From contig NZ_JAUQUB010000002.1 of NCBI RefSeq assembly GCF_030580675.1, positions 186,001 to 250,000 of the forward strand: DNA of 64,000 bases, written 5' to 3'. A program made the position numbers and the translations under genes. Positions 22,073 through 45,103 of this stretch are shown piece after piece. Position 1 is the first letter of the stretch. Every line of letters begins with the position of its first letter. Below the pieces are notes generated by a model. The model was not told the DNA's origin, did no database searches, and worked only from the letters and a program-made list of their open reading frames with translations. The stretch comes from Antiquaquibacter soli. Lineage in GTDB: Bacteria > Actinomycetota > Actinomycetes > Actinomycetales > Microbacteriaceae.

Positions 22073-22723
22073 ATGACGACGATCGGAATCCTCGGCGCCG
22101 GCAAGGTCGGCACGGTGCTCGCGCGACTCGCGCTGGATGCCGGGTACCGCGTGCTCATCGCCGGGTCGGGCGCCAAGGAGCGCATCGAGATCATCGTCGA
22201 CGTGCTCGCCCCCGGGGCGATCCCCCTCACCGCGCAGGAGGTGGCGGAGCAGTCGGACATCGTGATCCTCGCGCTCCCGCTCGGCAAGTACCGGAGCATC
22301 CCCGCCGCCGCGCTCGAGGGCAAGCTCGTCATCGACGCCATGAACTACTGGTGGGAGGTCGACGGCCGCCGCGAGGACCTCTCCGACCCGACCGTCTCGA
22401 CGAGCCGGCTCGTGCAGGACTACCTGGTGGGCGCGCACGTCGTGAAGGCGTTCAACCACCTCGGCTACCACGACCTCGACGAGGCGCCGGTGCCCGCGGG
22501 GGCGTTCGGCCGCGTCGCGATCGCCGTGGCCGGGGACGACGAGGCGGATGTCGCGCGAGTCGCCCAGCTCGTCGACGAATTCGGTTTCGACCCGGTCGTC
22601 GTCGGAGGGCTGGATGACGGAGTCCACCTCGGCCCCGGGACCCCGGCGTTCGGCGCTCGCGCCAACGCGGCTGCGCTGCGGGAGCTCTTCCTCGAAGCGG
22701 CGTCCCAGGCGCCCGCGGCGTAG
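22073..22723 (+). CDS. NAD(P)-binding oxidoreductase, coenzyme F420-dependent reductase-like family
   Basis: A 216-residue cytosolic protein. [20 protein letters not shown] is a Rossmann nucleotide-binding motif. [23 protein letters not shown] and [15 protein letters not shown] are the blocks shared with NADP-dependent F420 reductases and their NADPH-only relatives. Whether F420 is used is not decidable here, but the window also encodes a Ddn-like deazaflavin-family protein at 29936. It has its own gap from DUF2000 and ends 3 bases before a long palindrome. Confidence 0.85.
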
Positions 22724-22726
22724 CTC

Positions 22727-22802
22727 GCGCCGAGTTGCGACTTCCGCATCCTCCGCACGCCGAGCATCGCCCGCTGAGCATGCGAAAGTCGCAACTCGGC
22801 GC
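22727..22802. repeat. Long palindrome P1 next to the GIY-YIG gene
   Basis: Arms 22727-22749 and 22780-22802 (23 bases, one mismatch) around a 30-base loop. The arms carry CCGAGTTGCGACTT and its complement. It fills the gap between two convergent genes and ends 3 bases before the GIY-YIG stop codon. It lacks a T-run. It resembles palindromes at 25138, 29884 and 45035. Confidence 0.8.
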
Positions 22803-22804
22803 AG

Positions 22805-23341
22805 CTAGCGCAGCGCGAGCGCCTCGCTGACCCAGCGGGCGTACTCGTTCCACGGGTCATCCACTCCCGCGGAGAGGGCCGCGATGTGGGCGAGCAGCGG
22901 CTCGTTCGACGCGAACCACTCGCTGCCCGGGTAGCGGTGCGCCGCGAACTGGGCGTGCCGCCGCTGCTCGAGGGTGCGGCCCCCACGCTCGAACGCGAGC
23001 AACTGGTCCCAGTGCAGGGCGGCGAGCCGGCCGCGCGGGTTGCCCGAGGTGCCGATCTTGATGCGGTCGCCGGCGCGGACGTAGTACACGACGTCGACGC
23101 GGGCGCTCGCCGCGTCATCCGGGAGCTCGCCGAGCCGCCACTCGCAGATCGCGCACAACCAGCCCGACGGGTAGCGCACGCCGAGCCGCGAGCCGCACGC
23201 GAGGCACGGCGAGGGAAGCAGGTCCGTGACGCCCACGTCGCGCGCGACCCAGTCGTAGGCGACCATGAGGTGGGATGCACAGAGCTCGAGCGGTGCGCCC
23301 CGCTCGGGCATCCCGCCGCAGCCCTCGATCGCGCACCTCAC
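22805..23341 (-). CDS. GIY-YIG nuclease family (T5orf172/MUG113-like) protein with N-terminal zinc-binding cysteines
   Basis: A 178-residue protein. The N-terminal part has Cys3, Cys8, Cys21-x2-His24 and a second set Cys46-x2-Cys49 / Cys63-x2-Cys66, suggesting one or two zinc sites. Residues 84-99 (VVYYVRAGDRIKIGTS) and the following NPRGRLAAL correspond to the GIY-YIG core in its T5orf172/MUG113 form, and LEQRRHAQFAAHRYPGSEWF supplies the later Arg/His/Glu positions. Likely binds or cuts DNA; target unknown. GTG start without a clear ribosome binding site. Its 3' end abuts palindrome P1, which may be relevant. Confidence 0.82.
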   Translation of the reverse strand: MRCAIEGCGGMPERGAPLELCASHLMVAYDWVARDVGVTDLLPSPCLACGSRLGVRYPSGWLCAICEWRLGELPDDAASARVDVVYYVRAGDRIKIGTSGNPRGRLAALHWDQLLAFERGGRTLEQRRHAQFAAHRYPGSEWFASNEPLLAHIAALSAGVDDPWNEYARWVSEALALR

Positions 23342-25137: not shown

Positions 25138-25204
25138 TGAGTCGCGAGTTACGCCCCTTCCGACATCCGCAACCGCGTCGGGAAGGGGCGGAACTCGCCA
25201 CTCA
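25138..25204. repeat. Long palindrome P2 between divergent rlmC and the response regulator
   Basis: Arms 25138-25164 and 25177-25204 pair over 27-28 bases with two mismatches and one bulge around a 12-base loop. The left arm contains GCGAGTTACGCCCCTTCC. It lies between divergent promoters, 17 bases before the TAGGGT box of the response regulator, so termination is not its obvious role. Confidence 0.8.
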
Positions 25205-29185: not shown

Positions 29186-29898
29186 TGCGGCACGCGTTCG
29201 AGACGATGGGCACGGTCGCCTCGCTGCACCTCGACGGCCCGGTGCCCGCCTCGCTCATCGAGGCCGTCGAGAACGTGTTCGCCGACTACGACGCGGAGTT
29301 CAGCCTCTACCGCTCCGACTCGCCGCTGTCGGCGATCGGCGACGGCCGGCTGCGGTTGACGGATGCTCCGGCGCGGGTCATCCGCGAGTACGAGCGCGCG
29401 CTCGACTGGAACCGCCGCACGACCGGCTGGTTCTCGCCGCACCGCCCCGATGGCGTGCTCGACCTCTCCGGCACGATCAAGGCGGTCGCGATCGGCGACG
29501 CGGTGGAGCTCCTGGCCTCCGCCGGGGGGAGCGGGCTGCTCGGCGTCGGCGGCGACGTCGCGGCGATCGGCACGGGCATCCACCGCATCGGCGTCGTCGA
29601 CCCGCGCGATCGCGGCCGCGTGCTCGCCGACCCGGTCCTCGACGCGCGTCGGGCGATCGCGACGTCGGGTTCGGCGGAGCGCGGCGACCACATCTGGTCG
29701 AGCCTCGGCCGCACCGACATCCTGCAGGCGACAGTCCTCGCGGACGACATCGTCACGGCCGACGCCGTCGCGACCGCGATCGTCGCCGCGGGCACCGCGC
29801 ACTGCGGAGACCTCCTCGACGCGCTGCCCGTCGACGCCCTCATCGTCTCCGCCGAGGGCCTCTCCGCGACCCCCGGCTGGCCGCGAGTGGCGAGTTAA
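29185..29898 (+). CDS. apbE: FAD:protein FMN transferase
   Basis: A 237-residue ApbE enzyme that attaches FMN from FAD to a threonine or serine of target proteins, here very probably Thr155 of the preceding protein. FETMGTVASLHL begins the fold, LDLSGTIKAVAIGDAVE and LLGVGGDVAAIG are the FAD-binding core, SGSAERGDHIWSS and DDIVTADAVATA carry the magnesium-binding residues. It is on the short side for the family and has no signal peptide, unlike many Gram-negative homologues. The stop TAA lies inside the arm of palindrome P3. Confidence 0.93.
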   Translation: MRHAFETMGTVASLHLDGPVPASLIEAVENVFADYDAEFSLYRSDSPLSAIGDGRLRLTDAPARVIREYERALDWNRRTTGWFSPHRPDGVLDLSGTIKAVAIGDAVELLASAGGSGLLGVGGDVAAIGTGIHRIGVVDPRDRGRVLADPVLDARRAIATSGSAERGDHIWSSLGRTDILQATVLADDIVTADAVATAIVAAGTAHCGDLLDALPVDALIVSAEGLSATPGWPRVAS

Positions 29899-29950
29899 GC
29901 ACCTTCCGACGAGAGAAAGCGCCCCGCGAAGGTGCTTAAGTCGCCACTCG
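29884..29950. repeat. Long palindrome P3 supplying both convergent stop codons
   Basis: Arms 29884-29906 and 29928-29950 (23 bases, one mismatch) around a 21-base loop, with GTGGCGAGTTAAGCACC in the left arm. The apbE stop (29896-29898) lies in one arm and the Ddn-like gene stop (29936-29938) in the other, so the arms also encode both C-terminal ends. Possible bidirectional terminator, though it has no T-run. Confidence 0.8.
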
Positions 29951-36739: not shown

Positions 36740-36797
36740 GGTCGGGCTCGACCGGCCGCGCGGAGCCGCCGCCGTCGCGGCCGCGGGTGCTGGCGGC

Positions 36798-36883
36798 CTG
36801 ACCCCGTTTCTCAGGAATACGCCCTCGCCGACTGGATAGTGTCGACGGCGGCGGCATATTCCTGAGAAACGGGGCGGGTCAGG
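36798..36883. repeat. Hairpin repeat A, 86 bp, downstream of the DUF559 gene
   Basis: Contains a perfect 18-base stem, CCCCGTTTCTCAGGAATA (36802-36819) with its complement (36857-36874), and a 37-base loop. It matches repeat B (37844-37929) in the same orientation with only three differences. The stop codon of the DUF559 gene lies inside its right end. Confidence 0.9.
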
Positions 36884-37757
36884 AGCGCGTACGCGGCCAG
36901 AGGTGGTCGCGGTCGGCGAGGCGTCGCAGGATGACTCGCTCGACCTCCGGCCACTGGAACATCACCTGCTCGTACGACAGCGTCAGCTGCAAGTACCCGC
37001 CGTCGACCATCCGCAACTCGCGACTGCGGTCCCGGGCATAGTTCTCGACACCGGTGTGGTGCTCGCGGCTCAAGCACTCGATCACCAGGCGTTCGCCGAC
37101 CAGCAGGTCCACCCGATCCGGCCCGACCTCAACCTGGATTCGGACTCGGATGCCTCGCGCCCGCAACCTCAGACGCACCAAGGTCTCGGTCCCTGACTGG
37201 GCGCGACCATCGGCGCGGGAGAGTGCATCGCGATAGCGGGGCGCCAGGTCTCCGAATGCGATCTCGAGCTCCCGCCGCGTCACGAGCCCCTTGTCCATCG
37301 CCGAGTCCAAGAGTGCGATGGCGTGCTCCTCGGGCTGGCATTCGAGTGCATGGATGAGTGCGCTCGGGAGCGGTTCGATCAGCCGCGTTGTGGCCCCGGG
37401 GACTCGTCGCCAGTGCACGCATACGCGGTCGGAGTCATCACCGAGCGGCGTGCGCCGATCATCCGGCGACCGTAGGCGAGCCGCATTCCGGGGGACGGAG
37501 ACATGGAGGAGGCCATCGTCGATCGTCCACAGGCCCGCGCGACCAGCGGCGGACACGGCGGTCAGGGACCCTCCGACTCGAACGGCGCGCACCAGGTCGG
37601 CAGGGGCATCCGGAACCGCGTACCACGCCCGCCGAACCCGAAAGAGACGTCGATCGGTGAGCGCCTTCTCGATCTGCCAGGGCGTGGCCCCGGCATCCAG
37701 CAGGAGCGATCGGGGAGCGACGAGGCCGTGGGCCCGGACGAGAGCGACGGGATCCAT
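36879..37757 (-). CDS. DUF559-type nuclease with AbiEi-like winged-helix N-terminus
   Basis: A 292-residue protein. Residues 1-60 (LDAGATPWQIEKALTDRRLFRVRRAWYAV) look like the winged-helix region found in AbiEi-like antitoxins. The C-terminal third resembles DUF559, a very-short-patch-repair-like PD-(D/E)XK domain: VRIQVEVGPDRVDLLVGERLVIECLSREHHT, with Asp and Glu in place but Cys-Leu where Val-Asp or a Lys is often seen. Role unknown; DNA cleavage is a family-based guess. Base composition looks less GC-extreme than neighbours by eye. It is bracketed by two 86-bp hairpin repeats and sits between two DosR-like operons. Confidence 0.82.
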   Translation of the reverse strand: MDPVALVRAHGLVAPRSLLLDAGATPWQIEKALTDRRLFRVRRAWYAVPDAPADLVRAVRVGGSLTAVSAAGRAGLWTIDDGLLHVSVPRNAARLRSPDDRRTPLGDDSDRVCVHWRRVPGATTRLIEPLPSALIHALECQPEEHAIALLDSAMDKGLVTRRELEIAFGDLAPRYRDALSRADGRAQSGTETLVRLRLRARGIRVRIQVEVGPDRVDLLVGERLVIECLSREHHTGVENYARDRSRELRMVDGGYLQLTLSYEQVMFQWPEVERVILRRLADRDHLWPRTRS

Positions 37758-37843
37758 GTGCCCAGCATCGGCGAGTACTACCCCGTCACGGGGAGCACGC
37801 CGCCACCTGGGTACTCCGAGCCCGCCGCGGTCACAGGGGAGGA

Positions 37844-37929
37844 CTGATCCCGTTTCTCAGGAATACGCCCCCGCCGACTGGATAGTGTCGACGGCGGCGG
37901 CATATTCCTGAGAAACGGGGTGGGTCAGG
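37844..37929. repeat. Hairpin repeat B, 86 bp, upstream of the DUF559 gene
   Basis: Direct copy of repeat A with three substitutions, including the same CCCGTTTCTCAGGAATA stem. It lies between the DUF559 start and the 3' end of the P-type ATPase gene, 44 bases from that stop, and could terminate the ATPase operon. Confidence 0.9.
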
Positions 37930-45034: not shown

Positions 45035-45103
45035 GCGAGTTGCGAGTTGAGCAGCCTGGAGCGCGGGATTCGGCACCCGGAAGCTGCGTAACCCGCAACT
45101 CGC
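45035..45103. repeat. Long palindrome P4
   Basis: Arms 45035-45055 and 45083-45103 (18 of 21 bases paired) around a 27-base loop, with GCGAGTTGCGAGTTGAGC in the left arm. It lies between two same-strand genes, 13 bases before the -10 box of the next one. Confidence 0.7.

Follow-up and report, generated by a model that had tools for sequence, protein, structure and literature searches.

The locus at positions 22,727 to 23,341 of the window, by which we mean the whole 64,000-nt stretch of Antiquaquibacter soli DNA analysed here, raises the question of why a small gene of a nuclease family ends beside a long palindrome, P1, and whether the two belong together. The palindrome and its coordinates in the original prediction were borne out. 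P1 forms an inverted repeat of 22727-22756 and 22773-22802, with arms measured at 30 nt and 90% complementarity around a 16-nt loop, and occupies the 81-bp gap between the convergent oxidoreductase and MUG113 genes. Predicted to lie before a stop codon, it is adjacent to one (2 nt) but sits just past the 3′ end of the MUG113 gene. Six hairpins in the window scored 16 or higher, P1 reaching 21, compared with none in 20 dinucleotide shuffles (shuffle maximum 15), and P1 folded as single-stranded DNA at −30.7 kcal/mol, compared with −15.3 ± 2.3 in 200 shuffles. Given shuffles free of hairpins at this threshold and a folding z score of −6.7, P1 is not due to chance. An Rfam scan of the window at gathering scores returned no match.

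Table 1 Features of the window around P1, the other P1-class palindromes and the DUF559 cassette.
Feature	Position	Strand	Comment
F420/NADP-dependent oxidoreductase-like gene	22073..22723	+	convergent to the MUG113 gene; stop codon 3 nt short of P1
P1 palindrome	22727..22802	.	68-nt core 22731-22798 matches 67-nt family members; orphan (dispersed) copy
MUG113 (GIY-YIG clan) gene	22805..23341	-	178 aa; stop 2 nt from P1; apparently incidental neighbour
P1-class palindrome	25138..25204	.	between divergent tRNA U5-methyltransferase-like and response regulator genes
P1-class palindrome	29884..29950	.	intergenic by crude gene caller
Repeat copy 1 with palindrome of non-P1 class	36792..36883	.	hairpin 36802-36874, CCCGTTTCTCAGGAATA...; overlaps last bases of DUF559-like gene
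AbiEi/DUF559-like gene	36879..37757	-	292 aa; C-terminus nuclease-like
Repeat copy 2, same palindrome	37838..37929	.	upstream of DUF559-like gene
P1-class palindrome	45036..45102	.	between tandem genes

The gene beside P1, described earlier as a zinc-finger GIY-YIG protein, scored above the Pfam cut-off for MUG113 (PF13455, E 1.9e-5), which we take to be a family of the GIY-YIG clan, and CxxC pairs were seen in its translation, but no zinc-finger family in Pfam matched at E 0.01. It was the only MUG113 gene found in this genome. Orthologues occurred in 9 of 39 relatives, all of the same genus, and none of the eight complete ones analysed carried a hairpin scoring ≥11 at its 3′ end, suggesting that the adjacency of P1 to the GIY-YIG gene is incidental. 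In the relative G023, the oxidoreductase and MUG113 genes were convergent and side by side without a palindrome, so P1 would have been either gained in this genome or lost in G023.

P1 belongs to a family of palindromes with compensatory changes. The half-site GAGTNGCGANTT occurred 37 times in this genome, compared with once for a reversed-pattern control, and 0-8 times in each of 39 other genomes, the control there often being equal or higher. A covariance model detected the palindrome at full length at 20 sites in this genome, on both strands in every case, together with one short match, and gave any match at all in 7 of 40 genomes, the counts in relatives being at-least values (129 candidates scored per genome). 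Judged by these searches, the family appears nearly confined to this genome among the 40 searched. An alignment that took 15 of the 20 copies was nearly gapless at 67-68 nt, with 89.3% of cells paired, compared with 28-46% in slid controls. Both sides of the arms were changed in 21 cells, a number reached in 0 of 500 shuffles, and 8 of 23 pairs carried a both-side change, a number reached in 49 of 500.

All 20 P1-class copies lay outside called genes (crude gene caller), in 6 convergent, 8 tandem and 6 divergent intergenic spaces. Read by eye, the 15 aligned copies had near-symmetric ends, YGAG...CTCR, without a one-sided tetranucleotide tag (GTAG or similar) at the palindrome foot. No target-site duplication was evident by eye at the flanks, where junctions against relatives are not base-exact, and no target-site rule for insertion emerged. 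Outside DUF559 cassettes, the neighbours were mostly of metabolic, transport and unknown families. Here 28 ORFs were called at 15 places and 20 of them scanned, with two repeats of scanned genes and six doubtful calls omitted; nuclease families among the 20 comprised one NucS and one RmuC, and three ORFs had no family at all. P1-class palindromes flank two DUF559 genes of this genome; the other copies adjoin ordinary genes. Two P1-class palindromes, L203 (C11:65998-66064) and L021 (C1:714014-714080), lie one ~22 nt from nucS (endonuclease) and the other ~30 nt from rmuC.

The two flanked genes (C1:315311-316270 and C1:320052-320939) are AbiEi/DUF559-like, encode proteins 52% identical and carry P1-class palindromes on both sides. 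It is likely that the P1 family is tied to AbiEi-DUF559 cassettes of this kind, in which a first palindrome is followed, after a short gap, by the gene for a fusion of an AbiEi-like module with a Vsr/EDxHD-type nuclease and then by another palindrome, often starting at or near the stop codon. The hairpin-bearing DUF559 cassette noted earlier in the window was also recovered, its gene lying between two 92-nt repeats that are 95% identical. The encoded protein matched DUF559 at 15.3 bits and MTES_1575 at 28.4 bits (E 1.8e-6), both below the Pfam cut-offs. Another DUF559-like gene (C1:188977-189858) is flanked by a palindrome class other than P1, and the class of the window gene differs again. 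Ten DUF559-type genes are known in this genome; those at C8:68861, C1:519703 and, broken, at C10:74649-75484 had no hairpin, C9:19837 had one on one side only, and C7:329376 and C1:648801 each had one hairpin with a diverged copy opposite. In the cassettes read in this genome, the space between the palindromes has no room for a second gene.

Several details of these cassettes were also seen. The near-identical copies of the window cassette, a third palindrome class, include the loop and stand in direct order. By eye, the loop order of the two palindromes is inverted in some cassettes and direct in others (L089, L056 versus L050, L087). In the first P1-class cassette (cassette A; L200 2748-2826 and 3777-3853, that is, C1:315247-315325 and 316276-316352), the repeat extends ~10 nt past the palindrome and takes in the final codons of the DUF559 gene; these 10 nt recur beyond the opposite palindrome, which seems to supply the stop codon of a neighbouring membrane-protein gene. 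The broken gene at C10:74649-75484 (L040) is without palindromes, and interrupted genes also occur in relatives (L084, L146, L148, L151).

To look beyond this genome, DUF559 loci were picked by protein alone: 45 actinobacterial loci, 25 loci and 60 further places from a genome search, in which 28 of 40 genomes, this one included, had DUF559-group genes. Hairpins scoring ≥14 occurred beside DUF559 genes at 1.22, 1.14, 0.75 and 1.01 per kb in four locus sets, compared with 0.049, 0.037, 0.024 and 0.046 per kb elsewhere in the same sets (L103, L105, L108, L109 and L112, whose match positions were ambiguous or unset, left out of this count). Matching palindromes stood on both sides at 63 of the 130 loci, 29 as full pairs and 34 as a hairpin with a diverged copy opposite; tested against the flanks of other loci as a control, the diverged-copy criterion succeeded in 0.7% of 675 cases. 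The remaining loci comprised 47 without an adjacent hairpin of ≥14, 11 with one on one side only and 9 from Curtobacterium with only a terminator-like hairpin. The nuclease-hairpin link that had been suggested from the window, which is not supported for GIY-YIG, is supported for DUF559 far outside it, with about half of the loci flanked. Of 131 DUF559 loci, 32 had a matched pair 500-1600 bp apart, compared with none of 43 other loci. A rough check found no near-identical loci in the DUF559 set.

The flanking palindromes were gene-specific and covaried with protein relatedness. By local alignment, left and right palindromes were alike in 29 of 29 full pairs, with scores of 25-64 (a set with L039 and without L080 and the window pair), whereas palindromes of different genes (<50% identity) scored 8 on average, with a 99th percentile of 13 and a maximum of 24. 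An alternative set, with L080 and without L039, gave 29 of 29 alike at a score of ≥20, and a fixed-register comparison gave 22 of 31, the window pair scoring 21 of 22. Across 74 genes, palindrome and protein likeness were correlated (Mantel r 0.45, rank correlation 0.14; reached in 0 of 999 permutations), and a palindrome was shared by 73% of 26 gene pairs at ≥60% protein identity but by at most 0.5% at <40%. Measured from the first stop-codon base, the start of the 3′ hairpin fell at −13 to +15 nt for 32 of the 52 counted, so that the TGA is often included in the palindrome. For 51 of 62 upstream hairpins, the end lay ≤100 bp from the start codon as assigned, a distance biased low because the start was taken as the first beyond the hairpin. 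The middle half of the palindromes measured 56-64 nt. The four interrupted relatives' genes were kept in the density count and the 130-locus tally and left out of the Mantel test; the nine Curtobacterium loci were left out of the Mantel test and tallied apart among the 130, and kept in the density, stop-distance and matched-pair counts.

Palindromes were also dispersed intergenically in genomes with a matching cassette. In G008 and G003, the P1 model found palindromes related to the P1 class beside their own DUF559 genes together with scattered copies. Among nine same-genus genomes without a DUF559 match, eight had no P1-model match; G018, which has no DUF559 match, gave a single marginal one (E 8e-4). 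A second palindrome class, GAGTGTTCCGATNTGG, occurred 25 times in G023, 7 times in this genome and in none of 38 others, with no control match, and flanks a DUF559 gene in both G023 and this genome.

Both the cassettes and P1 were present or absent at syntenic sites. A 9.5-kb query with both P1-class cassettes was searched in seven relatives, and junctions were read in G022 and G023, where the flanks of both cassettes matched in the same order. The flanks of cassette A (C1:315247-316342) were separated by 38 bp (G022) and 101 bp (G023), compared with ~1.15-1.2 kb here, and those of cassette B (C1:319988-321096) by 98 bp and 206 bp, respectively, compared with ~1.13 kb here, so that both cassettes are missing in both relatives. 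The relatives are ~70-85% identical in DNA, and the junctions are not base-exact because the flanks are too diverged. We regard gain of the P1-class cassettes here as the simpler interpretation; the two relatives may instead both have lost them. For the window's own DUF559 cassette no empty site was found, both flanks matching in 7 of 9 relatives at separate places, and a phage search gave no match that would suggest a phage origin.

What the cassette gene encodes was approached through an AlphaFold2 model of a Rathayibacter relative, L054 (32 sequences; pLDDT 93.9). Residues 187-287 resembled I-Bth0305I (Z 12.1, rmsd 2.5, 93 residues) and the C-terminal domain also resembled Vsr (Z 10.6), so that the DUF559-type C-terminus is predicted from this model to adopt a PD-(D/E)XK Vsr-like fold; the likeness to TnsA (7.3) may reflect the common fold only. 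By Foldseek alone nothing fell below E 0.001, the best match being I-Bth0305I at E 0.0074. Across the 32 sequences, E190, D222 and D249 were invariant and H239 was kept in at least 90%; with the window protein included, E191, D217 and D243 were invariant and H233 nearly so. We take these conserved E, D, H and D residues to be the catalytic set, presumably the one assigned to I-Bth0305I-type nucleases under the name EDxHD. In contrast to the EDxHD homing endonuclease I-Bth0305I and Vsr, DUF559 genes were never observed within introns or inteins and are flanked by their own palindromes. The N-terminal ~180 residues (6-182 in the model) resembled the AbiEi antitoxin 6y8q (Z 10.2, rmsd 5.5, 165 residues), and AbiEi_1 matched three of five proteins at 13.5-17.3 bits, below its Pfam cut-off of 22.2; unlike AbiEi antitoxins, this module is fused to a nuclease, and the cassettes read contain no companion gene. 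Pfam scans of the five proteins showed no Y1 transposase, only DUF559, MTES_1575, AbiEi or nothing. The model of the window protein was confident mainly in its C-terminal half and weak in its N-terminal half. Pfam lists DUF559 as function unknown, and MTES_1575 is described as an REase domain of the Vsr family that occurs fused to HEPN (PMC3710099).

The arrangement is reminiscent of REPtrons, in which gene-specific cognate palindromes flank a single nuclease gene and are scattered intergenically, the gene being single-copy and the palindromes many, and most conv-REPs lie ≤20 bp from 3′ ends (PMC3733652, PMC3116915, PMC6006769, PMC8266576). Like REP sequences, the P1-class palindrome occurs in many extragenic copies, its copy number being modest, and like RAYT genes the nuclease gene is flanked by the same palindromes, both in the two P1-class cassettes and in the wider set of loci. 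Unlike the HuH tyrosine transposase of REP/RAYT, the enzyme here joins an AbiEi-like module to a nuclease of Vsr/EDxHD type, and the system therefore stands outside the REP/RAYT family; its palindromes are longer than REPs (20-40 bp; PMC3733652) and lack the one-sided GTAG tag, and its named hosts are Actinomycetota. TIRtrons offer a second comparison, with long repeats that flank a TIRYT gene, may overlap its 3′ end and in some cases form repeat families (PMC3733652). These traits recur here, but the enzyme differs from the tyrosine transposase of TIRtrons and each flank is itself a palindrome. Among open-licence papers, we found nothing tying DUF559 to palindromes, REP sequences, inverted repeats, or transposition and Vsr, and no repetitive extragenic palindromic/RAYT work on Actinobacteria; among the matches listed in that literature, no title on Microbacteriaceae palindromic repeats concerned DUF559 palindromes, and DUF559 was absent from those of a broader search.

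Taking these observations together, we favour an arrangement that resembles REP/RAYT but uses an unrelated family of nucleases, AbiEi-DUF559, with P1 probably being a dispersed, non-coding, REP-like copy. We propose that the AbiEi-like module would recognise the palindrome of its own gene, which would probably be extruded as a hairpin or cruciform, that the nuclease domain would nick at or near it, and that repair or strand transfer would copy the palindrome into new intergenic places, as thought for RAYT/TnpA_REP and REPs. Palindromes would then multiply while the DUF559 gene stays single or is rarely duplicated, and P1 would have landed in a convergent intergenic gap, a position in which it is probably almost harmless. 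This mobilisation by the DUF559 nuclease is suggested by association and presence/absence, and absence could in principle reflect loss; cassettes could also be carried by recombination, with the palindromes serving something else. Whether Actinobacteria hold an independently evolved counterpart of REP/RAYT, in which a large family of AbiEi-DUF559 nucleases each recognise and spread their own hairpin and a PD-(D/E)XK nuclease joined to an antitoxin-like DNA-binding module replaces the HuH transposase, we regard as evenly poised. If so, each DUF559 gene would be tied to its own dispersed hairpin, a testable substrate for a family of unknown function; nuclease-driven palindrome spread would have arisen more than once, with unrelated enzymes; and a group of actinobacterial palindromic repeats would be accounted for.

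AbiEi autoregulates via inverted repeats, and the palindromes might instead be operators through which the AbiEi-like protein regulates its own gene and a regulon, the dispersed copies being regulatory sites. The AbiEi-like N-terminus and the closeness of the upstream hairpin to the start codon (subject to the low bias noted above) fit such a role, but the matching copy at the 3′ end is equally regular, 6 of the 20 P1-class palindromes are placed in convergent gaps, and a length of 67 nt with a conserved stem and free loop is untypical of operators. As the cassettes are, moreover, present or absent as wholes and the nuclease domain would be left without a role, we consider this reading unlikely. 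Similarly improbable is an ordinary mobile element with palindromes as its ends, dispersed copies as solo ends or miniature derivatives moved by another enzyme and the nuclease as cargo (for example, for defence or homing-type maintenance). Presence/absence at cassette size and the direct or inverted order of palindromes, seen by eye, would suit it, yet there is no room for another gene between the palindromes in the cassettes read, palindrome sequences vary with the DUF559 protein, the two P1-class proteins at 52% identity are not recent copies, and no phage match was found.

Transcription termination, to which hairpins starting at stop codons and the position of P1 between convergent genes might point, is very unlikely to account for the palindromes, since the gene also has a matching copy upstream, divergent genes enclose 6 of the 20 P1-class copies and both sides share a gene-specific sequence. 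For P1 itself it was rejected: a scan for a hairpin followed by a T-run (loops of 3-8 only) found 0 terminator-like sites in 22601-22950 on either strand, and no T-run was seen near P1 on reading the sequence. The terminator reading was kept for nine Curtobacterium loci (L044, L047, L049, L063, L068, L069, L074, L076 and L079), which have only a shared upstream GGAAGGSCCCC-type hairpin, probably the terminator of the preceding gene. The original proposal that P1 and the GIY-YIG nuclease are functionally linked has the 2-nt adjacency in its favour but is scarcely credible, and GIY-YIG was rejected as the partner of P1, given its hairpin-free orthologues, the G023 pair without P1 and the 19 further full-length copies that lie elsewhere.

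DUF559 genes with palindromes were also found on plasmids. In a plasmid collection, all four DUF559 matches, chosen by protein alone, had an adjacent hairpin, and those from Arthrobacter and Tsukamurella had, by eye, alike palindromes on both sides. One palindrome is common to two Arthrobacter sp. StoSoilB13 plasmids (L296 2883-2948 and L298 4527-4596); it adjoins the DUF559 gene on one and lies ~1.7 kb from a differently flanked DUF559 gene on the other.
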